A stretch of 64,000 nucleotides of DNA from Rhodoplanes tepidamans. Lineage in GTDB: Bacteria > Pseudomonadota > Alphaproteobacteria > Rhizobiales > Xanthobacteraceae. A program made the position numbers and the translations under genes. The notes beneath the pieces are model-generated. The model saw only the letters and a program-made list of their open reading frames with translations, made no database searches and was not told where the DNA came from. This document shows positions 4,375 to 64,000 of this stretch, piece after piece. The DNA lies in assembly GCF_030813915.1 (NCBI RefSeq), contig NZ_JAUSUJ010000033.1, positions 1 to 64,000 on the forward strand, in the 5' to 3' direction. The first letter of the stretch is position 1, and every line of letters starts with the position of its first letter.

Positions 4375-4388
4375 CGGGCGCTGTTCTT

Positions 4389-4536
4389 CACCTCTCCCCG
4401 CCGGGGAGAGGTCGGATCACGCGCGAGAGCGCGAGATCCGGGTGAGGGGGTGCCGAGGCCCGCCAACTGGCGCCGTAACCCCTCACCCCGGTGCGCGCTT
4501 CGCGCGCCCCGACCCTCTTCCTCAGGGAGAGGGTGA
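4389..4536. repeat. Composite dispersed palindromic element, family A, copy 1
   Basis: About 150 bases made of four hairpin modules joined by conserved connectors: CCTCTCCCCGCCGGGGAGAGG, a second hairpin around GCGCGAGAGCGCG, the connector GGTGAGGGG...CGCCGTAA, a third hairpin GTGCGCGCTTCGCGCGC, and CCCTCTTCCTCAGGGAGAGGG. The same arrangement in inverse orientation occurs at 59941-60083, and a one-hairpin remnant at 60842-60871. It lies between the convergent genes ptrB and the TctC-type gene and could also act as a bidirectional transcription stop. Confidence 0.85.
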
Positions 4537-4626
4537 AGGCGCCTGCGGCGGCCTCGACGCTCGGCCTGACAGCCGTGCGGCGAACCGGGCCTGACGGGTC
4601 AGACGGCGCGACAGTCGCCCGTCACC

Positions 4627-52919: not shown

Positions 52920-53146
52920 CGGCTGCCCACCGCGGTCCACTCCGGATCAGTGCTTATTGATTTGGCTTGGTTTTTGGCGCTGATGCAGAGGTGCCGCGGA
53001 GGCCGGGGAGATTCGACGAGAACGCGGGCTTATGATGTAGTCGCTCCGGCTGCGGTCGCGGGGTGACTGGAGCGAAGGCCGCGTTCGATCCGGTGGACTG
53101 CACGACACGCGTCATCCATCAGGCATCGGTGGAGAAGGGGGCGAGC

Positions 53147-54709
<1,563 letters not shown>

Positions 54710-54773
54710 CGCTCCGACCACCGATCGCAACGACACCGACCAGCATGCCGCAGCCAAACGGAGTCCTTCGGAC

Positions 54774-55139
54774 ATGACTCAGGAGATGCTCGGGGGCCTT
54801 CTCCTCCAGCTCTACGGCTCTTTCCTGGTGAGCGCCGTGGTGGCCGCCCTGACAGCGGTCGTCACGGTCAGGCTCATGACCCGCCGCCAGGCGGACGCGC
54901 CTGCGGTTCCGGCCGTCGCCCACGCGCCGGCCGTCCCGGCGCCGGCGCCGGCCGGTCCGATCCTCGGTCCCGGCGTCGGCGCCGACGACCTCGCCGTGAT
55001 CGCGGCGATCGCGGCGGCCGCCTTCGGCGCGCATCGCGTCGTCTATATCGGCGAGGCGCGGCCCGGCTCCGGCTGGACCTCGCAGATCCGGACGCGGCAC
55101 CACGCGTCGCATGCCCCCCACAAAGCCAACCACCACTGA
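54774..55139 (+). CDS. mmdD: OadG/MmdD-like small membrane subunit
   Basis: A 121-residue protein with one N-terminal helix (LLQLYGSFLVSAVVAALTAV), an Ala/Pro linker, and a C-terminal segment DDLAVIAAIAAAAFGAHRVV-YIGEARPGSGWTSQIRTRHH ending in ASHAPH. The tail matches OadG-family proteins, whose C-terminus contacts the carboxytransferase and whose helix contacts the sodium-pump beta subunit. It sits between the carboxytransferase and biotin-carrier genes, with 29 bases shared with the longest reading of the latter. Confidence 0.82.
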   Translation: MTQEMLGGLLLQLYGSFLVSAVVAALTAVVTVRLMTRRQADAPAVPAVAHAPAVPAPAPAGPILGPGVGADDLAVIAAIAAAAFGAHRVVYIGEARPGSGWTSQIRTRHHASHAPHKANHH

Positions 55140-55167
55140 CATCGCGCCGTTCGGGACGAGACCAATC

Positions 55168-55614
55168 ATGATGAGACACCTGCGGATCACTGTCGACGGC
55201 CGGGTTTTCGACGTCGTCGTCGAGGACATCACCGAGGCCGGCGCGTACACGCCCGCCCCGATTCCGGCGCCCGTCGCCCACGCACCGGTCGCCGCGCCGC
55301 GGCCCGCACCGGCCCCGGCTCCGGCGGCTCCGCCGCCCGCGGCCGCTCCGGCGCCCGCCGCGGCGGCGCCCGCCTCCAAGGGCGGCGCTCCGTCGGGCGG
55401 GGCGGACGACCGGCTGGCGCCGCTCGCCGGTGTCGTGCTCGAGGTCAGCGTGAGCGTCGGCGACAAGGTCGACGTCGACGACCAGGTCGTCGTGCTCGAG
55501 GCGATGAAGATGAAGACCGTGATCGGCGCCCACAAGGCCGGCACCGTCACGGGCATCCACGTGAAGGAAGGCGACGCGGTCGACGCCGACCAGCCGCTGG
55601 TGACGATCAGCTGA
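55168..55614 (+). CDS. mmdC: Biotin carboxyl carrier protein of the decarboxylase-like complex
   Basis: A 148-residue protein in three parts: an N-terminal strand-rich piece (MMRHLRITVDGRVFDVVVED), a Pro/Ala-rich swinging linker (residues 28-70), and a biotinyl domain (80-148) with LAPLAGVVLEVSVSVGDKVD and the biotin site EAMKMK, Lys114 being the expected attachment point. Typical of MmdC/GcdC-type carriers. ATG 55168 follows GGGACGAG; a start at 55111 inside the upstream gene is possible. A strong terminator follows 35 bases after the stop, so no beta-subunit gene belongs to this operon. Confidence 0.88.
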   Translation: MMRHLRITVDGRVFDVVVEDITEAGAYTPAPIPAPVAHAPVAAPRPAPAPAPAAPPPAAAPAPAAAAPASKGGAPSGGADDRLAPLAGVVLEVSVSVGDKVDVDDQVVVLEAMKMKTVIGAHKAGTVTGIHVKEGDAVDADQPLVTIS

Positions 55615-56165: not shown

Positions 56166-56696
56166 TCAGCGCCCGGTGCGGCCGCTCGCCTTGTCGACCA
56201 GGGCGATCAGGCCCTGCAGCAGGTCGATCGGCCGCGGCGGGCAGCCGCGCAGCGTCAGGTCGACCGGGATCACCTGGTCGACCGATCCGACCACGGCGTA
56301 GCTCTCGCCGAACACGCCGCAGCCGGCCGCGCAGTCACCGACCGCCACGACGAATTTCGGATCTGGCGTCGCCGCGAAGGTGCGCTCCAGCGCGACCTTC
56401 ATGTTGCGGGCGACCGGCCCGGTGACCATCAGGACGTCGGCGTGGCGCGGCGAGGCGACGAACTTGAGGCCGAAGCGCTCGCAGTCGTAGACGGCGTTGT
56501 TGAGGGCGTGGATCTCCAGCTCGCAGCCGTTGCACGAGCCGGCGTCGACCTCGCGGATCGACAGCGAGCGGCCGTAGACGCGCCGCACCCGGTCCTCCAG
56601 CGCGCGCCCGACCTCGTCGAGCGCCGCCGCCGACGCGTCCGGCGCCGGCACCGTCACGGGCTTCGCGAACAGCGACTTCAGGATCAGGGTGCGCAT
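56166..56696 (-). CDS. HyfI/NuoB-like small Fe-S subunit of a complex-I-related membrane complex
   Basis: A 176-residue homologue of hydrogenase-4 small subunit and NuoB. Cys55 and Cys58 (GSCNGCELEIHALNNAVYDC), Cys122 (VAVGDCAAGCGVFGESYAV) and Cys152 (LRGCPPRPIDLLQGL) provide the ligands of the proximal 4Fe-4S (N2-type) cluster, so an electron path is retained. It is the last gene of the reverse-strand operon HyfB-C-E-F-G-I. A 199-base gap filled with palindromic repeats separates it from the large-subunit gene. ATG 56696 (MRTLILKSL) is the family-like start. Confidence 0.92.
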   Translation of the reverse strand: MRTLILKSLFAKPVTVPAPDASAAALDEVGRALEDRVRRVYGRSLSIREVDAGSCNGCELEIHALNNAVYDCERFGLKFVASPRHADVLMVTGPVARNMKVALERTFAATPDPKFVVAVGDCAAGCGVFGESYAVVGSVDQVIPVDLTLRGCPPRPIDLLQGLIALVDKASGRTGR

Positions 56697-56738
56697 GGGG
56701 GCGAGGTCCCTTCCTTCGGTCGCGACCATCCTCCGCGT

Positions 56739-56883
56739 CCGTCGTGGCCGGGCTCGTCCCGGCCATCCACGGCCGTGCGCGCGACAGGGTCCGAAACGCG
56801 TGGATGCCCGGGACGGGCCCGGGCATGACGGGTCTGTGCGTGCCGCTCCCGGGTCCCCGCCTTCGCGGGGACGCGCGGAACGA
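56739..56883. repeat. Palindromic repeats inside the Hyf-like operon
   Basis: CGTCGTGGCCGGGCTCGTCC-CGGCCATCCACG (56739-56770) and its approximate inverse CGTGGATGCCCGGGACGGGC-CCGGGCATGACG (56800-56831) form a long inverted repeat whose arms also fold individually. A TCCCCGCCTTCGCGGGGA hairpin follows at 56850-56883. All lie between the large- and small-subunit genes. Confidence 0.8.
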
Positions 56884-56895
56884 GGGGGGCCGGCC

Positions 56896-58422
56896 TCACA
56901 GATCCGCTCCCGAGTACGAGCAGTTGAACGACTTGTTGCAGAGCGGGAAGTCGGCGACGATGTTGTTCTCGATCGCCGCCTCGAGCAGCGGCCACTGGAA
57001 CCAGGACGCGTCGCGCACGTGGCAGCGCGCCACCTTGCGGCCGGGCAGCAGGCGCAGCCAGACGAGCAGGTCGCCGCGGAACGCCTCGGTCACGGCGATG
57101 CCTTCGGCGGGCGCGGCGGCGTCCGGCACCGGCGCCAGCGTCGGCCCCTCGGGCAGCGCGCGCAGCCATTCGCGGATCAGCTTCATCGACGCGGCGACCT
57201 CGCGGATGCGGATCTGCACCCGCGCGTCGACGTCGCCGGCGGTCAGCACCGGCACCTCGAAGGCGTGGCCCGCATAGGGCGCGTAGGCGAGATCGCGGCG
57301 GGCGTCGAAGTCGCGCGCCGAGGCGCGGCCGACCGGCCCGCCGGCGGCGAAGCGCACCGCGAGGTCGGCGGCGAGATGCCCGGTGCCGCAGGTGCGGTCC
57401 TGGATCGACGGCGTGTCCTCGTAGAGCCGGACGATCTCCTCGAAGGCCGGCGTGATCTCGTCGAGGGTCGCGACGATCAGCCTCGCGCCCTCGGCCGTGA
57501 TGTTGGCGGTGACGCCGCCCGGCACGATGGTGTCCATCATCAGCCGGTGGGCGAACACGGCCGCCGAGGCGGCCAGGATCTTCTCGCGGAAGATGCCGCA
57601 ATGGGCCAGCATGATGGCGAAGGCGGCGTCGTTGCAGATCGCGCCGATGTCGCCGAAGTGATTGGCGAGCCGCTCGAGCTCGGCCATCACGCCGCGGATC
57701 ACCGTGGCGCGGCGCGGCACGTCGAGCCCGAGCGCCGCCTCGACGGCGCGGGCGAAGGCGAAGCTCGCCGCCACGGTCGAGTCGCCGGAGACGCGCGCCA
57801 CCACCTTGCCGGCGCGCTCCAGCGGGACGTCGGTGAGCAGCCCGTCGATGCCCTTGTGGACGTAGCCGAGCCGCTCCTCCAGCCGCACCACGGTCTCGCC
57901 GTTGGCCGTGAAGCGGAAGTGGCCGGGCTCGATGATGCCGGCATGCACCGGGCCGACCGGGATCTCGTGCAGGCCGTCGCCGGTCACCGGCAGCATCGGG
58001 TAGTCGGCCGGATGGCGCGGCACCGGATCGCCGCGGCGGCCGAGCGGGCCGGCGAGCGTCCAGGCGCCGTGATCGAGCCAGGGCCGCAGGTCCGGCGCGT
58101 CGACCGGCTCGTAGCCGAAGAGGTCGCGGATCGCCCGCTCCGGCCGGATCGCCGGCGCGTGACGGACGCCGACCGACGGGAAGCGGCCGTCGATCACGGC
58201 GGTGGAGACGACGCACGGCGCCTCGCCGATGCGACGCACGGCGAGATGCACCATGCCGGACTCGGCCCACAGCCCCAGCATCTCGCGCTCGCCCTGGCCG
58301 AGCGCCTGGGCGATCGCCTCGAACGCCATGGTCTCGACCTCGTAGCGCGACCACGGCCGCATCGGCACCACGGCGAGGGCGTCGGCGAGCAGCGCGGCGA
58401 TGCGGTCTTCGCTGGTGGTCAT
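56896..58422 (-). CDS. HyfG/NuoCD-like large subunit lacking the NiFe-site cysteines
   Basis: A 508-residue fusion of a NuoC-like N-terminal part (1-145) and a NuoD/hydrogenase-large-subunit part. RLGYVHKGIDGLL aligns with the HycE region before the first metal motif. Where HycE has RVCGICG the sequence is RVSGDST (210-216), with both cysteines gone. The C-terminal DPCxxC motif is replaced by DFPLCNKSFNCSYSGADL at the very end, leaving a lone cysteine, and no cleavable extension follows. The NiFe centre therefore cannot be built as in hydrogenases. The fold otherwise looks intact (ELERLANHFGDIGAICNDAA). Seven bases after the HyfF stop. Confidence 0.92.
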   Translation of the reverse strand: MTTSEDRIAALLADALAVVPMRPWSRYEVETMAFEAIAQALGQGEREMLGLWAESGMVHLAVRRIGEAPCVVSTAVIDGRFPSVGVRHAPAIRPERAIRDLFGYEPVDAPDLRPWLDHGAWTLAGPLGRRGDPVPRHPADYPMLPVTGDGLHEIPVGPVHAGIIEPGHFRFTANGETVVRLEERLGYVHKGIDGLLTDVPLERAGKVVARVSGDSTVAASFAFARAVEAALGLDVPRRATVIRGVMAELERLANHFGDIGAICNDAAFAIMLAHCGIFREKILAASAAVFAHRLMMDTIVPGGVTANITAEGARLIVATLDEITPAFEEIVRLYEDTPSIQDRTCGTGHLAADLAVRFAAGGPVGRASARDFDARRDLAYAPYAGHAFEVPVLTAGDVDARVQIRIREVAASMKLIREWLRALPEGPTLAPVPDAAAPAEGIAVTEAFRGDLLVWLRLLPGRKVARCHVRDASWFQWPLLEAAIENNIVADFPLCNKSFNCSYSGADL

Positions 58423-58429
58423 GGGGCGA

Positions 58430-59890
58430 TCATCCGAGCAGGGCCGCGACGCCGCGGAACCAGCGCACCAGCGCCTCGGGCAGCCACAGGCCGGCGACGA
58501 GGGCCAGCAGCAGATGGACGAAGAGCGGCACGTAGGAGGCCTTGACCGGGTCCGACTTGCCGCGCGGCTCGCCGAACACGACCTGCTGCATCCGCATCAG
58601 CAGCGCACCGAGCGCGAGGATCAGGCCGGCGACCAGCACCACGGTGAGCAGCGGCTGGCGGCCGAAGGCGGTGGAGACGAGCAGGAACTCGCTCATGAAC
58701 ACGCCGAAGGGCGGCAGGCCGACGATGGCGATCACGCCGAGCGCGAAGCCGACGGCGAGCACCGGATGGGTCGACGACAGGCCGGAGATGTCGGCGAGCC
58801 GCTGCGTGCCCTTGGCCTGGGCGACGTGGCCGACGGCGAAGAAGATCGCCGACTTGACCAGGGAGTGCATGGTCATGTGCAGGAGGCCGGCGAAGTTGGC
58901 GAGCGGCCCGCCGATGCCGAACGCGAAGGTGGCGATGCCCATGTGCTCGATCGACGAGTAGGCGAACAGCCGCTTGATGTCGCGCCGCCGGTACAGCATG
59001 AACGCCGCGAACAGCAGGCTGACGAGGCCGAGCGTCATCAGGATGGCGCCGACGTCGATCGCCAGCGGATTGCCGGCCAGCACCATCTTGAAGCGCAGCA
59101 GCGCGTAGAGCGCGACGTTGAGGAGCAGGCCCGACAGCACCGCCGAGATCGGCGTCGGGCCCTCGGCATGGGCGTCGGGCAGCCAGGCGTGGAACGGCGC
59201 CAGCCCCACCTTGGTGCCGTAGCCGACCAGCAGGAACACGAAGGCGAGCGACAGCAGCTTGGGATCGAGCGCCGCGGCGTTGCGGACGATCTCGTCCCAC
59301 GCCATCGCCGGCACGCCGGCGCCGATGACCGTGGACGACACCATGTAGATCAGGATGGTGCCGAAGAAGGCGAGCCCGATGCCGACGCTGCCGAGGATGA
59401 AGTACTTCCACGCCGCCTCGATCGCCTCGGGCGTGCGGTAGATGCCGACCATCATGACGGTCGCGAGGGTCGCCACCTCGAGCCCCACCCACATCAGGCC
59501 GATGTTGTTGGAGACGAGCGCCAGGTTCATGGCGCCCATCATGGCCTGGTACATGGCGTGGTAGAAGCGCAGGAAGGCCGGGGTGAGCTTGCCGGTCTCC
59601 AGCTCGTGGCCGATGTAGCTCGCGCTGTAGACGCTGGTGGTGAAGCCGACGAAGGTCGTCAGCACGATCAGGAAGATGTTGAAGTCGTCGATGATCAGGA
59701 AGTCGCCGCGCTCGTGCGGGGCGGCGAGCAGCAGGAGGCCGGCCGCGAAGGTGAGGCCGGAGACCAGCATGTTGAGGCCGGCGCTGAGCCGGTAGTCGGA
59801 GATCACGGCCAGCACGGGAATCGCGAGCGTCGGCACCAGCAGCACCAGCGCCACGGGCGACAGCGGCAGCGCGGCGACGAGGTCGGTCAT
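58430..59890 (-). CDS. HyfF/NuoM-N-like antiporter subunit
   Basis: A 486-residue polytopic protein with about fourteen helices of the Mrp-antiporter/NuoL-M-N family. The conserved proton-channel blocks are MWVGLEVATLATVMMVGIYR (glutamate on TM5), KVGLAPFHAWLPDAHAEGPT with PISAVLSGLLLNVALYALLR, and RRRDIKRLFAYSSIEHMGIA. It should translocate protons or sodium ions. Followed after seven bases by the large-subunit gene. A composite repeat of about 150 bases separates it from the preceding HyfE gene. Confidence 0.93.
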   Translation of the reverse strand: MTDLVAALPLSPVALVLLVPTLAIPVLAVISDYRLSAGLNMLVSGLTFAAGLLLLAAPHERGDFLIIDDFNIFLIVLTTFVGFTTSVYSASYIGHELETGKLTPAFLRFYHAMYQAMMGAMNLALVSNNIGLMWVGLEVATLATVMMVGIYRTPEAIEAAWKYFILGSVGIGLAFFGTILIYMVSSTVIGAGVPAMAWDEIVRNAAALDPKLLSLAFVFLLVGYGTKVGLAPFHAWLPDAHAEGPTPISAVLSGLLLNVALYALLRFKMVLAGNPLAIDVGAILMTLGLVSLLFAAFMLYRRRDIKRLFAYSSIEHMGIATFAFGIGGPLANFAGLLHMTMHSLVKSAIFFAVGHVAQAKGTQRLADISGLSSTHPVLAVGFALGVIAIVGLPPFGVFMSEFLLVSTAFGRQPLLTVVLVAGLILALGALLMRMQQVVFGEPRGKSDPVKASYVPLFVHLLLALVAGLWLPEALVRWFRGVAALLG

Positions 59891-59940
59891 GGCACCCTCG
59901 CCGGGCTTCGAGCCGTCATGCCGGGCGCCGCGGACGTCGT

Positions 59941-60083
59941 CACCCTCTCCCTCAGGGAGAGGGTCGACGCGCGCAGCGCGTCGGGGTGAGTGTTTACGGC
60001 GCCGGTTGGATGCCTCGGCCCCCCCTCACCCTGATCTCGCGCGGATGCGCGAGATCCGACCTCTCCCCTCGGGGGAGAGGTGA
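59941..60083. repeat. Composite palindromic element, family A, copy 2 (inverse orientation)
   Basis: Reverse-complement version of the element at 4389-4536: CACCCTCTCCCTCAGGGAGA, hairpin GACGCGCGCAGCGCGTC, connector GTGAGTGTTTACGGCGCCGG, then CCCTCACC, hairpin ATCTCGCGCGGATGCGCGAGAT and CCTCTCCCCTCGGGGGAGAG. It occupies the gap between the HyfE-like and HyfF-like genes. Confidence 0.88.
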
Positions 60084-60152
60084 GACGGAGAGTGCGGCAC
60101 CGATGGCCCTCGGTCGCAGAGGACGGCATTTTCGGGTCGGCGACGCCCCCCA

Positions 60153-60824
60153 TCACAGATGCTCCCGTCGCTCGCCGCGGAAGCGGTCGAGCACGTTGAC
60201 GTCGACGGTGTCGAAGCGCTCGCGGATGCGGAAGACGAAGACGCCGAACACGATGAAGGCGATCAGCACCGAGAAGGCGACCGACACCTCGACGACCAGC
60301 GGCATGCCCTTGGCGCCGGTGGCGGCGAGGACGAGGCCGTTCTCCAGCGACATGAAGCCGACCACCTGGGTGACGGCGTTGCGCCGGGTGATCATCAGCA
60401 GGAGGCCGAGCAGCACCACGGCGAGCGCGAAGGCGAAGTCCTCGCGGGCGACCGGGTCGGCGGTCTCGACCACCGGCTGCACCAGCAGGATCGACAGGGC
60501 GATCAGGCCGAGACCGGCCAGCATGGTCGGCCCGCCCGACACCACCCGCTCGACCTCGCGGTGGACGTCGAGCTTGCGGACGATCCGGTGCAGCGCGGTC
60601 GGGATGACGATCCCCTTGGCGACCAGCGCGATGAAGGCGGTGGCGAGCAGATGCGGCGCCCCCTGCACCACCGACTGCCAGCCGACCGACAGCGACAGCA
60701 CCACGGCCTGCAGGGCGAACACGTTGATCACCGCGGTGATGCGGTCCTGGTAGAGCAGCATCAGGCTGAGCACCAGCACGCCGGCGGCGAGCAGATGGGC
60801 GATGTCGAACCACAGCGCGTTCAT
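60153..60824 (-). CDS. HyfE-like membrane subunit
   Basis: A 223-residue protein with about six helices, resembling HyfE, a NuoK-like small channel subunit plus extra helices. Recognisable parts are LMLLYQDRITAVINVFALQA, ATAFIALVAKGIVIPTALHR, and ITRRNAVTQVVGFMSLENGL. The two membrane glutamate/lysine positions (AKG and SLEN) fit the NuoK-like proton path. The C-terminal tail is charged (VNVLDRFRGERREHL). Confidence 0.9.
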   Translation of the reverse strand: MNALWFDIAHLLAAGVLVLSLMLLYQDRITAVINVFALQAVVLSLSVGWQSVVQGAPHLLATAFIALVAKGIVIPTALHRIVRKLDVHREVERVVSGGPTMLAGLGLIALSILLVQPVVETADPVAREDFAFALAVVLLGLLLMITRRNAVTQVVGFMSLENGLVLAATGAKGMPLVVEVSVAFSVLIAFIVFGVFVFRIRERFDTVDVNVLDRFRGERREHL

Positions 60825-60841
60825 GCCGGCCTCGGCGATGC

Positions 60842-60871
60842 GTCACCCTCTCCCCGGCGGGGAGAGGTGAA
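60842..60871. repeat. Family A palindrome remnant (single hairpin)
   Basis: CACCCTCTCCCCGGCGGGGA-GAGGTGAAGG between the HyfE-like and HyfC-like genes repeats only the terminal hairpin of the family A element. Confidence 0.75.
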
Positions 60872-60903
60872 GGAAGAGCCGATCCGCAGGTGGCCCGCAC
60901 GCA

Positions 60904-61878
60904 TCAGAACCCCCGCGAGACGAAGCGCAGGAACACGGCGAGCGCCGCGGCCGCGAAGGCGCTGCCGAGGAACGCCGGATAGCGGAACACCCGCATCTTG
61001 GCGACCGTGGTCTCGGCGATCGGCAGCAGCACGGCGAAGACGAGCAGCTTGGCGAGCCAGGTGGCGAGGCCGAGCGCCAGCGCGGCCCAGCTCTTGTCGC
61101 CGGCCGCCATGCCGAACGGCGCGAACAGGCAGGCGACCAGCGAGAAGTAGAGCACCAGCTTGACCTGGGCGGCGGCCTCGATCATCGCCAGATGGCGCCC
61201 CGAATATTCGAGGATCATCGCCTCGTGCACCATGGTCAGCTCGAGATGCGTGGCCGGGTTGTCGACCGGAATGCGGGCGTTCTCGGCGATGCCGACGATG
61301 ATCAGAGCGAGCAGCGCCAGCCCGAGCGAGACCCGCACGCCGACATCGCCGGTCGCGAACAGCGCCGCGATGGCGGAGAGCTGCGTCGTCCCGGCGATCA
61401 GCGCCACCGCGAAGGCGATCAGCAGCATGGCCGGCTCGGCGAGCGACGCGATCATCATCTCGCGCGACGAGCCGAGGCCGCCGAACGCGGTGCCGACATC
61501 CATGCCGGCGAGCGCCAGGGCGAAGCGCGCGGTGCCGAGCAGCGCGACGACCGCGATCAGGTCGGCCGACCAGGAGAACAGCAGCCCGGTGGCGTAGGTC
61601 GGCACCAGGCCGGCCGCCACCCAGGTGGCGGCGAAGATCACGTAGGGGGCGCGGCGGTACACCCACGACGCGTTGTCGGCGACCACCGCCTCCTTGTGGA
61701 ACAGCTTCCACAGGTCGAGATAGGGCTGCAGCAGCGGCGGCCCGCGCCGGCGCAGCAGCCGCGCCCGCACCTTGCGGGTGAGGCCCATGATCAGCGGCGC
61801 GATCGCCACCACCAGGGTGATCTGCAGGAGCTGCAGCGCGAGCCCGACGGCCAGCGCCGTGTCGACGGTCAGCGCCAT
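60904..61878 (-). CDS. HyfC/NuoH-like membrane subunit
   Basis: A 324-residue membrane protein with about eight helices, homologous to HyfC/HycD and NuoH, the subunit linking the Fe-S arm to the antiporter-like subunits. Key segments are PPLLQPYLDLWKLFHKEAVV, GMDVGTAFGGLGSSREMMIA, AENARIPVDNPATHLELTMV-HEAMILEYSG (with the conserved Glu cluster) and LPIAETTVAKMRVFRYP. Its start lies ten bases inside the HyfB-like gene. Confidence 0.93.
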   Translation of the reverse strand: MALTVDTALAVGLALQLLQITLVVAIAPLIMGLTRKVRARLLRRRGPPLLQPYLDLWKLFHKEAVVADNASWVYRRAPYVIFAATWVAAGLVPTYATGLLFSWSADLIAVVALLGTARFALALAGMDVGTAFGGLGSSREMMIASLAEPAMLLIAFAVALIAGTTQLSAIAALFATGDVGVRVSLGLALLALIIVGIAENARIPVDNPATHLELTMVHEAMILEYSGRHLAMIEAAAQVKLVLYFSLVACLFAPFGMAAGDKSWAALALGLATWLAKLLVFAVLLPIAETTVAKMRVFRYPAFLGSAFAAAALAVFLRFVSRGF

Positions 61879-63881
61879 ATCGCCACCACCAGCATGAGGA
61901 CGATCAGGGCGGCGAAGACCAGCGCCAGATAGCGCCGGATGGTGAGGAACTGCAGCCGGTTCAGCCGCACCGCGCCGCGCAGCACGCCGCGGGCGAGCGG
62001 CCCGTAGACGAACCGCCAGGCGGGATCGCGCACCCGCATGCGGAAGCGGCCGGCCCGCGTCTCGCCGGGCCGCGGCATATCGACGGTCTCGTGCACGCCG
62101 AACAGCACGGTGCCGAAGACGCGGCGGATCGGCTGGGCGAAGCTCGAGCTCGAATACTGGGTGACCGGGCTGTCGAGCGGATAGCCGCAGTCCCAGATCG
62201 GGCTCTTGCGGGTGCTGCGCGAGGCGAGCCGGTGGACCACGGCGGCCGTCATCGTGCCGGAGGCGACCAGGAAGAAGAAGATCACGAGGCCGTTGTAGGA
62301 GCTGCGGCTGTCGGCGATCGGCACCAGCGAGAGCCAGGGCAGGCCGGCCTGGGGCGGCAGCGCCACGAAGGCGAGCTGGCGGGCGACGGGCGCCAGCGCG
62401 TCGACCACGAGGCCGGGCAGCGTGCCGGCCAGGATGCAGATCCAGGCCAGCGTCAGCATGGCGGTGAGGGCGAAGCCGTCGACCTCGGTCGCCTGCGCGG
62501 CGGCGGGCGAGCGCGGCCGGCTCAGGAACACCACGCCGAACGCCTTGACGAAGCAGGCGCCGGCCAGTGCCGCGGCGAGCGCCAGCATGGCGCCGACCGC
62601 CGGCACGGCGAACTTCAGCCCCCATTGCGGCAGCTGCGGGCTGAGCAGGATCGCCTGGAAGGTCAGCCACTCGGAGACGAAGCCGTTGAGCGGCGGCAGC
62701 GCCGCGATCGACATGCAGCCGATCAGGAACACCACCGCGGTCTGCGGCATGCGGTGGATCAGGCCGCCGAGCTTCTCGGTGTCGCGCTCGCCGGTCGCGG
62801 TCAGCACGGCGCCGGCGCCGAAGAACAGCAGGCTCTTGAACACCGAGTGGTTGAACACGTGGAACAGCGCCGCGGTGAGCGCCAGCGCCGCCGCCGGCCC
62901 CTGCCCGTTCGCCCGGAAGGCGAGCGCGAGGCCGAGCCCGATGAACACGATGCCGATGTTCTCGACCGTCGAGTAGGCGAGCAGCCGCTTGAGGTCGCGC
63001 TGCATCACCGCATAGAGCACGCCGAGCACCGCGGTGGCCCCGCCGGCCAGCACGACGACCAGCCCGGCCCAGGACGAGAAGTCGCCGACCACGTCGAAGA
63101 CGATGCGGATGAAGCCGTAGACGCCGACCTTGGTCATCACCCCGCTGAGCAGCGCCGAGACGTGGCTCGGGGCGGCCGGATGGGCGAGCGGGAGCCAGAC
63201 GTGCAGCGGCACCAGGCCGGCCTTGGAGCCGGCCCCGACCAGCGCCAGCAGGGTGGCCAGGGCGGCGGCCGACCCGCCGACCGTGGCGCCCCGCATGCCC
63301 GCGAAGGTGAAGTCGCCGCCCGGCGCGGCGAGCAGTCCGAAGGCGAGCAGCAGGCACAGGGTGCCGAAGCTCGCCATGGCGAGATAGATGAAGCCGGCCC
63401 GGATGTTGGCCGGCTCGCGGTGGTGCGCGACGACGAGCGTCCACGAGGCGAGCGACATGAACTCCCAGGACAGCAGGAACGAGAAGGCGTCGGCGGCGAG
63501 CAGCACCAGGTTCATGCCGGCCAGGAACGGGCCGAAGAACGGCAGCACCCGCATCGGCGAATGCTCGTGGCGGCCGTAGCCGATGCCGTAGAGGCTCGCG
63601 GCGGCAGCGCCCAGATTGACCACCAGCATGAAGAAGGCGGAGAGCGCGTCGAGGCGGAAATGGGCGCCGATCCCGGGCAGGCCGATCGGCAGCACCACGG
63701 TGCTCGGCGCGGCGCCGCCCAGGAGGGTGGTCAGCGCCAGCAGCACGGCACCGAGCGCAACCAGCAGGGTGGCGCCGTAGACCAGCGGGGTCGCGATCGC
63801 GCGGCCCCCGAGGATCGTCGCCGCGACGCCGATCCCGAGAAAGCCCGCGATGCACCACAGACCGATCGCGACCTCCGGCAT
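61869..63881 (-). CDS. HyfB/NuoL-like antiporter subunit
   Basis: A 670-residue polytopic protein of the HyfB/HycC type. Conserved blocks are FSFLLSWEFMSLASWTLVVA (TM5 glutamate), GSKAGLVPLHVWLPLAHPAA, SHVSALLSGVMTKVGVYGFI, RDLKRLLAYSTVENIGIVFI and LPPLNGFVSEWLTFQAILL. The C-terminal extension contains WDCGYPLDSPVTQYSSSSFA, typical of HyfB. First gene of the operon visible in the window; ATG 63881 (MPEVAIGLW) is preferred to a start further upstream. Only 119 bases remain upstream in the window, so a ferredoxin (HyfA) gene beyond the edge cannot be excluded. Confidence 0.93.
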   Translation of the reverse strand: MPEVAIGLWCIAGFLGIGVAATILGGRAIATPLVYGATLLVALGAVLLALTTLLGGAAPSTVVLPIGLPGIGAHFRLDALSAFFMLVVNLGAAAASLYGIGYGRHEHSPMRVLPFFGPFLAGMNLVLLAADAFSFLLSWEFMSLASWTLVVAHHREPANIRAGFIYLAMASFGTLCLLLAFGLLAAPGGDFTFAGMRGATVGGSAAALATLLALVGAGSKAGLVPLHVWLPLAHPAAPSHVSALLSGVMTKVGVYGFIRIVFDVVGDFSSWAGLVVVLAGGATAVLGVLYAVMQRDLKRLLAYSTVENIGIVFIGLGLALAFRANGQGPAAALALTAALFHVFNHSVFKSLLFFGAGAVLTATGERDTEKLGGLIHRMPQTAVVFLIGCMSIAALPPLNGFVSEWLTFQAILLSPQLPQWGLKFAVPAVGAMLALAAALAGACFVKAFGVVFLSRPRSPAAAQATEVDGFALTAMLTLAWICILAGTLPGLVVDALAPVARQLAFVALPPQAGLPWLSLVPIADSRSSYNGLVIFFFLVASGTMTAAVVHRLASRSTRKSPIWDCGYPLDSPVTQYSSSSFAQPIRRVFGTVLFGVHETVDMPRPGETRAGRFRMRVRDPAWRFVYGPLARGVLRGAVRLNRLQFLTIRRYLALVFAALIVLMLVVAIWR

Positions 63882-64000
63882 GCCCCACCCCGTGTACCGA
63901 TCCGGAGGCGGGCCAGGAACCACGGTCAGGGTCACGCGAGGGTGACGGTCACCGCAAGGCACCGCGAGGCGACGACAGGCGCCGCACGCGCCGGACCCGG

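Follow-up and report, generated by a model that had tools for sequence, protein, structure and literature searches.

An energy-converting hydrogenase-related operon of Rhodoplanes tepidamans with a putative metal-free pocket at the former NiFe site

Introduction

The first 64,000 bases of contig NZ_JAUSUJ010000033.1 of Rhodoplanes tepidamans (hereafter the window; the whole contig has 66183 bases and the genome 6.86 Mb) carry, on the minus strand from 63881 to 56166, six open reading frames (ORFs) of the same direction, which encode homologues of HyfB, C, E, F, G and I. Judged by its sequence, this operon is an unexceptional representative of the known class of energy-converting hydrogenase-related (Ehr) complexes, because a group 4-like large subunit without CxxC motifs is accompanied in the locus by antiporter-like and NuoH-like genes. 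Here, we argue that the cysteine ligands of the NiFe centre have been replaced by what appears to be a new conserved pocket. We also propose, tentatively and with a confidence that falls a little short of even, that the Ehr complex is a six-subunit, membrane-bound and redox-driven proton pump, in which a soluble one-electron carrier docks on HyfI and the pocket serves as a metal-free acceptor site. A working proton-coupled machine is suggested because the pocket, the proton path, the cluster and the channels are conserved.

Complexes of this kind have been described in Sulfobacillus, comammox Nitrospira and Margulisbacteria (PMC4378227, PMC10284858, PMC6349859), and in the parts of the literature available to us their function is unassigned (PMC6349859, PMC4378227, PMC10284858, PMC10432482). 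Thus, Ehr complexes are known already and are common in related bacteria, and the window operon adds a member. What those descriptions share with it is a group 4 hydrogenase-like large subunit without CxxC pairs together with NuoH-, NuoL/HyfB- and HyfE-like genes; no excluding difference was found when the two were set side by side by published description, not by published sequences. A preliminary description of this DNA had already proposed an Ehr-type complex, which agrees with the homology, the CxxC loss and the membrane subunits found here.

The operon and its relatives

The six genes named in the preliminary description were all recovered as ORFs with family matches:

61869..63881, minus strand: HyfB-type antiporter-like subunit, 670 amino acids (aa); NCBIfam NF005086, 848.7 bits, above cut-off
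60904..61878, minus strand: HyfC/NuoH-type membrane anchor subunit, 324 aa; Pfam PF00146, 136.8 bits
60153..60824, minus strand: HyfE-type small membrane subunit, 223 aa; NCBIfam NF008556 (hydrogenase 4 membrane subunit), E 1.5e-24, below cut-off
58430..59890, minus strand: HyfF-type antiporter-like subunit, 486 aa; NCBIfam NF005043, 783.2 bits, above cut-off
56896..58422, minus strand: HyfG-type large subunit without NiFe ligands, 508 aa; Pfam PF00346
56166..56729, minus strand: HyfI-type small subunit, 187 aa, with four hydrogenase-type proximal-cluster cysteines; Pfam PF01058, 105.1 bits

The ATG of hyfC overlaps the 3' end of hyfB, and the N-terminal part of HyfG aligns with the NuoC-like domain of HycE. 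Curated NCBIfam or Pfam cut-offs are passed by five of the six subunits, HyfE being the exception; a HyfE homologue stands between the C and F genes in all 17 further long loci that were read, each of which has all six genes. These matches support the assignment of the six proteins to the complex I/hydrogenase-4 superfamily, for HyfE at a score below the curated cut-off.

In Escherichia coli hydrogenase 4 (hyfA-J), the homologues of HyfB, C, E, F, G and I are found in identical relative order. In contrast to E. coli, which has a third antiporter-like subunit, HyfD, the window operon contains no such gene; HyfA, D and H genes were not found in the window (HyfJ was not searched), and the four NiFe ligands are replaced. 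Respiratory complex I shares homologous subunits (NuoB/C/D/H/L/M), antiporter residues and an equivalent of NuoD Asp139 with the window operon, which differs from it in having no NuoE/F/G/I genes, no His38/Tyr87 equivalents, and CxxC instead of a tandem CC. Mycobacterium tuberculosis Rv0081-Rv0088 is a further stand-alone set of HyfB/C/E/F/G/I-like genes, with a helix-turn-helix (HTH) regulator.

A close homologue of the large subunit (E at most 1.6e-164) is present in 62 of 398 evenly drawn Pseudomonadota genomes, R. tepidamans included; a truncated match at a contig end (G144) was left out of the 62, and the next full-length matches in this sample lie at about 1e-97. Genome contigs yielded 251 relatives when scanned; the analysis went on with the best 80, and the nearest loci belong to Rhodoplanes, with HyfG identities of 84 and 86%. 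All six subunits were located by tblastn in 63 of these best 80 loci, the remainder being mostly on short contigs. For L023 and L052, both among the 63, the HyfB match is only a cross-hit to HyfF. Three Acetobacteraceae loci (L047, L059, L064) have no HyfI beside HyfG, and a HyfI homologue, possibly from a second copy, is found elsewhere in each genome. Actinomycetota, Bacillota and Deinococcota were sampled through plasmid records only.

The gaps within the window operon (59891-60152, 56730-56895 and 60825-60903) contain interspersed repeats, and about 160 bases of the gap between hyfE and hyfF are repeated in inverted orientation at 4388-4553, with 82% identity.

The former NiFe site

Window HyfG and its relatives were aligned with E. 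coli HycE, HyfG and NuoCD, and with two internal controls from R. tepidamans, which also encodes NuoD (contig C19) and a group 4 hydrogenase (contig C1). The alignment holds 129 Ehr rows, a count that leaves out the hydrogenase and NuoD controls, the divergent loci L151 and L152, the true Hyf locus L154, Mycobacterium branderi and Alicyclobacillus; 127 of these rows are readable at the ligand columns, L066 and L068 being gapped there. RVSGDST in window HyfG stands at the place of RVCGICG in HycE, and SFNCSYSG at the place of SLDPCYSC, so that the two motifs had been read correctly in the preliminary description; C241, C244, C531 and C534 of HycE correspond to S212, S215, S502 and G505. The ligand columns are Ser-Ser-Ser-Gly in 112 of the 127 readable rows, the window included, and eleven further patterns are spread over the other 15; a single Cys occurs in two of these patterns (SCSG, CSAG). 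Not one of the 127 has two or more ligand cysteines. The six hydrogenase controls, among them HycE, E. coli HyfG and the C1 hydrogenase, have Cys at all four columns. Since all four ligands are replaced, a NiFe centre cannot form, as had been concluded from the window alone.

The ligands had also been called lost. They are gone indeed, but degeneration is not what the alignment indicates: a new conserved pocket appears to have taken their place, because conservation extends to the residues that delivered protons to the old site, to the cluster cysteines of HyfI and to the residues of the proton paths in HyfB and HyfF. In HycE, proton delivery is ascribed to His188, Glu193, Arg478, Glu437, Arg395 and His284, with Asp529 in the canopy, according to PMC9474812. 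Equivalents of the first five are conserved in 127/127 Ehr rows, and that of His284 in 127/129. Positions that are at least 97% invariant among the Ehr rows and different in both control groups include Ile164, Asp214, Asn264, His292, Asn496, Lys497 and Asn500, and the rows share a residue signature of SGDST, ND, GHR and NKSFNxSYSG. The alpha clade typically has two extra pocket cysteines, Cys495 and Cys501 (CC in 103/127). Both are replaced in ten rows of Burkholderia/Variovorax type and Rhodococcus (nine IL, one TL) and one is missing in 14, which rules out a redox-active dithiol at these positions as the mechanism of the family.

HycE of E. coli formate hydrogenlyase 1 (FHL-1; 7Z0S) is the best match of window HyfG both in sequence (phmmer, 1.5e-49) and in predicted fold (Foldseek, 7z0s_E, E 1.8e-26, TMq 0.83), and the proton-path residues are common to both. 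With HycE as the closest solved relative, one may ask whether alternative ligands could have kept the complex a hydrogenase or formate hydrogenlyase. This is hardly credible: no row keeps two ligand cysteines, neither HyfH nor HyfA accompanies the 17 further loci, and the HyfG protein ends right after the last motif. The AlphaFold model of HyfG, built on an input alignment of 33 rows, has a mean pLDDT of 75.5; no pocket geometry is claimed, because residues 146-189 and 484-508, which include many pocket residues, are modelled at low confidence (below 50).

Another relative without a NiFe site is Pyrococcus MBS (6U8Y), whose large subunit 6u8y_L ranks 27th among the Foldseek matches of HyfG. 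According to PMC7684303, MBS is a relative of MBH that lacks two of the four NiFe cysteines, its proximal cluster is bound by three cysteines in a motif three residues shorter, and no proton path leads to its pocket. An MBS-like sulfane sulfur reductase, in which the proximal cluster itself would be the catalyst, thus comes to mind. We regard it as very improbable for the window complex, in which, unlike in MBS as described there, four cluster cysteines stand in hydrogenase-type CxxC register and the proton path is intact; Cys495/Cys501 are, besides, both replaced in the ten rows mentioned above.

The small subunit and the membrane arm

HyfI of the window has all the proximal-cluster cysteines that the preliminary description had assigned to it (C66, C69, C133 and C163), and its motif CNGC is a CxxC, whereas cluster N2 of complex I has a tandem Cys-Cys. 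An alignment of 12 rows shows no change at these four cysteines, and of 114 small subunits that were extracted, 111 have them in register. Two of the three misses are wrong extractions that are actually intact, and the third is cut by a contig end after the third Cys; all four are kept in 113/113 fully readable HyfI from the Pseudomonadota loci that were read.

For the membrane subunits, the counts cover rows of at least 50% identity from loci L006-L097, and antiporter residues were located through NuoM positions. Glu in transmembrane helix 5 (TM5), Lys in TM7, Lys in TM8 and Glu in TM12 of HyfB are conserved in 72/72 rows. Glu138, Lys227 and Glu401 of HyfF are conserved in 82/82, the TM8 position being Asn as in E. 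coli HyfF. In HyfC, for which the E-channel positions were taken from HycD as given in PMC9474812, Glu148, Glu199 and Glu219 are found in 77/77 rows and Glu140 in 76/77; the position of HycD Glu199 is Ala or Ser and that of HycD Glu201 is His, so that most of the E-channel carboxylates are retained.

In three loci a second antiporter-like gene of 670 aa, of one family (f38), stands in tandem between HyfB and HyfC (L149:13727-15739, L153:3509-5521, L155:3587-5599), and that of L149 matches Pfam Proton_antipo_M. A HyfF-like subunit of Rhodococcus (L098:10280-11797) aligns without the usual Glu/Lys, possibly by misalignment.

Ferredoxin subunits

Ferredoxins of HyfA or HyfH type had been noted as absent from the window, and the search was extended as had been suggested. 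In the last 2183 bases of the contig, past position 64000, ORF reading gave a gene for an L,D-transpeptidase (Pfam YkuD) and one further gene, of which only the end is included; no ferredoxin-like ORF was seen. A HyfH query had no match on the window contig, and its only strong match genome-wide lies in the separate and intact hydrogenase operon on contig C1; the search for HyfA covered the loci, not the genome. Neither HyfH nor HyfA was matched in the 17 further loci (12.8-19.5 kb), while the true Hyf locus L154 showed both in the identical test. The C1 hydrogenase (L007:2900-16705) has all the ligand cysteines (CSLC, DPCVSC) and a HyfH-like ferredoxin of its own. It adjoins a HypB-type gene (Pfam cobW) and ORFs that by eye resemble HypA, XdhC and xanthine dehydrogenase.

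A tentative mechanism and its rivals

How could such a complex work? In the mechanism that we propose, a soluble one-electron carrier of the ferredoxin or flavodoxin type would dock on HyfI itself, as there is no HyfH/NuoI, the subunit that usually provides the wire. From there, the electron would pass through the single cluster of HyfI to the old NiFe site, which would now be a polar pocket without metal; a small acceptor may be reduced and protonated in it, and the energy would drive proton translocation through HyfC, HyfF and HyfB.

Several observations weigh against this proposal. First, no oxidoreductase, dehydrogenase or carrier gene recurs as a partner among the clusters listed in gene clusterings of 92 and 113 loci; these comprise the six subunits, small HTH regulators, antisense shadow ORFs and lineage-limited neighbours such as branched-chain ABC transporter genes, and they lend no support to a partner enzyme sought through conserved neighbourhood, although gene calling was crude and a small partner gene could escape it. 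Second, the equivalent of the canopy residue Asp529 of HycE is Asn in 126/127 rows, and so in the window. Third, the equivalents of NuoD His38 and Tyr87 are Ile and Gly/Ala in 127/127 Ehr rows, while both NuoD controls have His and Tyr. Fourth, in Allomeiothermus silvanus (L173:9815-10687) all four proximal-cluster cysteines of HyfI are gone and the pump residues are kept. Fifth, in two small alphaproteobacterial genomes (L151:8375-15167, L152:9102-15301) a divergent HyfG and a HyfI with its four cysteines accompany four membrane-protein-like genes that stand where HyfF, E, C and B would be expected, and in the alignment the proteins at the HyfB and HyfF places have none of the proton residues that were tested. 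In the wider class, therefore, electron supply may be separable from pumping. L151 and L152 hint weakly at the reverse case, with the cluster kept and the pump residues gone, since their presumed membrane subunits have no Pfam match and only that of HyfF in L152 gives a faint hit. The window's own clade, as far as its residues tell, keeps both halves, cluster and pump.

These points bring forward the main rival, in which the complex is no longer an oxidoreductase. It would be a translocator of protons or other cations whose old pocket serves as a proton-loading or ligand-sensing gate and whose Fe-S cluster only senses redox state, so as to adjust proton motive force (pmf) and internal pH under stress. 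Conservation of pocket and channels with no recurring electron partner speaks for it, as does A. silvanus, in which a NKSFD-SYAG stretch, antiporter residues and E-channel residues persist without the four cysteines, and M. branderi (L099:13309-14103), in which all four are replaced as well. However, both cases have another side: in A. silvanus the SGDST stretch is altered too, to GGE with a gap, and HyfI has by eye a CxxCxxC further upstream (Pfam finds no ferredoxin there), and M. branderi shows a ferredoxin match (single-cluster) in HyfI and has lost several E-channel residues. A mere gate, moreover, need not keep the four cysteines found in all 113 readable Pseudomonadota HyfI. On balance, we think this rival rather unlikely, though it deserves to be taken seriously. 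The A. silvanus plasmid has two places with equal score, and in a Streptomyces plasmid (L174) one of the four HyfI cysteines is replaced.

A third possibility is reduction of membrane quinone at a non-canonical site, in which case the complex would be a ferredoxin- or flavodoxin-driven complex I. In NuoD (Nqo4 numbering), His38 and Tyr87 belong to the quinone site. Asp265 of HyfG, the equivalent of NuoD Asp139, is conserved in 127/127 rows, and the hosts include Bradyrhizobium and other aerobic bacteria, which counts in favour of quinone. Quinone binding in the style of complex I is nevertheless unlikely, because the canonical head-group ligands His38 and Tyr87 are missing; the β1-β2 loop of HyfG (EPGHFR) is like that of hydrogenases rather than that of NuoD, and the proximal motif is CxxC rather than the tandem CC. 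For these reasons we hold this reading to be improbable.

Relatives linked to fluoride riboswitches

Relatives of the operon are found downstream of fluoride riboswitches in five plasmid loci:

L168:10563-10633: riboswitch upstream of an Ehr-like operon, Burkholderia cenocepacia
L169:10576-10646: riboswitch upstream of an Ehr-like operon, Burkholderia multivorans
L170:10386-10456: riboswitch upstream of an Ehr-like operon, Caballeronia (genes placed by tblastn)
L099:8061-8134: riboswitch upstream of an Ehr-like operon with a NUDIX gene between, M. branderi
L100:11537-11597: riboswitch upstream of a lone large-subunit gene, Alicyclobacillus

The operons of L168 and L169 sit among genes of pyrophosphatase, enolase, MutS, DUF190, CrcB and chloride-channel type. 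Ligand cysteine pairs are also missing from all five large subunits. In an IQ-TREE tree of 60 rows the five cluster together (100/99), beside the split toward true hydrogenases and NuoD, a position made unsure by long branches. HyfI carries a fused N-terminal ferredoxin-type domain in L168:15505-16305, L169:15513-16325 and L101:2487-3236, the second Ehr locus of Variovorax, for which no fluoride riboswitch was found; this domain may stand in for HyfH.

PMC11139923 names a 'formate hydrogen lyase' as an enzyme of the fluoride response and gives lowered pH and pmf as its setting. The five loci, read from their sequences, cannot be the [NiFe] formate hydrogenlyase of the fluoride literature, because the NiFe ligands are missing; Ehr-like operons under riboswitches may instead be what fluoride regulons call by that name. 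Further points for the translocator are this subgroup, with its Burkholderia neighbours CrcB, enolase, pyrophosphatase and MutS, and the lowered pH and pmf given in that source. Against it stands the absence of the riboswitch near any of the 62 Pseudomonadota Ehr loci (one of the two scans used stricter filters). A fluoride function was considered for the window complex too, since distant Ehr loci adjoin enolase, CrcB, MutS or DUF190 genes, and was rejected for its clade, given no riboswitch link in the window (0 matches to RF01734) or near the 62 loci. The only fluoride riboswitch of R. tepidamans precedes a crcB gene (Pfam CRCB) on contig C6 (locus L105), and the 11 of 62 complex-bearing genomes that have one (in G324 below cut-off) carry it on another contig or, in G139, 1.58 Mb away. 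A model built from 11 riboswitches and run against 98 sources matched L099, L100 and L102 (the model's own sources), L105, and L021 (E 0.49). In L102 of B. multivorans the riboswitch is upstream of an enolase gene only, not of the Ehr operon, and searches at the operons of Rhodococcus and Variovorax and in Allomeiothermus, Streptomyces, B. stagnalis and Methylocalor gave none.

In the passages and listings of open-licence papers that were consulted, we found neither the residue signature, nor variants without the cluster cysteines, nor an identification of the fluoride-response 'formate hydrogen lyase' with Ehr.

Neighbouring genes

Where HyfB was called, a small HTH regulator lies directly before it in 42 of 74 loci. 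Downstream of the operon, an enolase-like gene, named by eye, is seen in three Bradyrhizobium loci (L038, L041, L044), and a methyltransferase- or spermidine-synthase-like gene in L034, L036, L037, L040, L085 and L096, most of them with a second HTH regulator; these latter names too were given by eye, L096 being annotated as a methyltransferase. At 53063-55614 of the window, biotin-dependent carboxyltransferase and biotin-carrier genes converge on the operon, with an OadG-like ORF (by eye) between them. The same neighbourhood is found at L013:12175-17621, plus an OadB-like ORF (by eye), which is missing beside the window operon; three OAD_beta genes lie elsewhere in the R. tepidamans genome.

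Implications

It might even be possible, though we find it doubtful, that the Ehr class as a whole is a hydrogenase rebuilt into a metal-free proton-coupled gate, which moves protons or other cations to defend pmf and internal pH with redox input as an option; lineages with cluster loss, possibly its reverse, and fluoride wiring would then be outcomes of uncoupling. Whichever reading holds, the complex is widespread (62 of the 398 sampled Pseudomonadota genomes) and the cited papers, in the parts available, give no reaction for it. With the pocket signature, the kept proton path and natural variants without cluster cysteines, the question can be reduced to single-residue tests. At least in the five loci read, the 'formate hydrogen lyase' that PMC11139923 places in the fluoride response is not a [NiFe] hydrogenase. 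And if the pocket works without metal, this would bear on how complex I evolved from hydrogenases.

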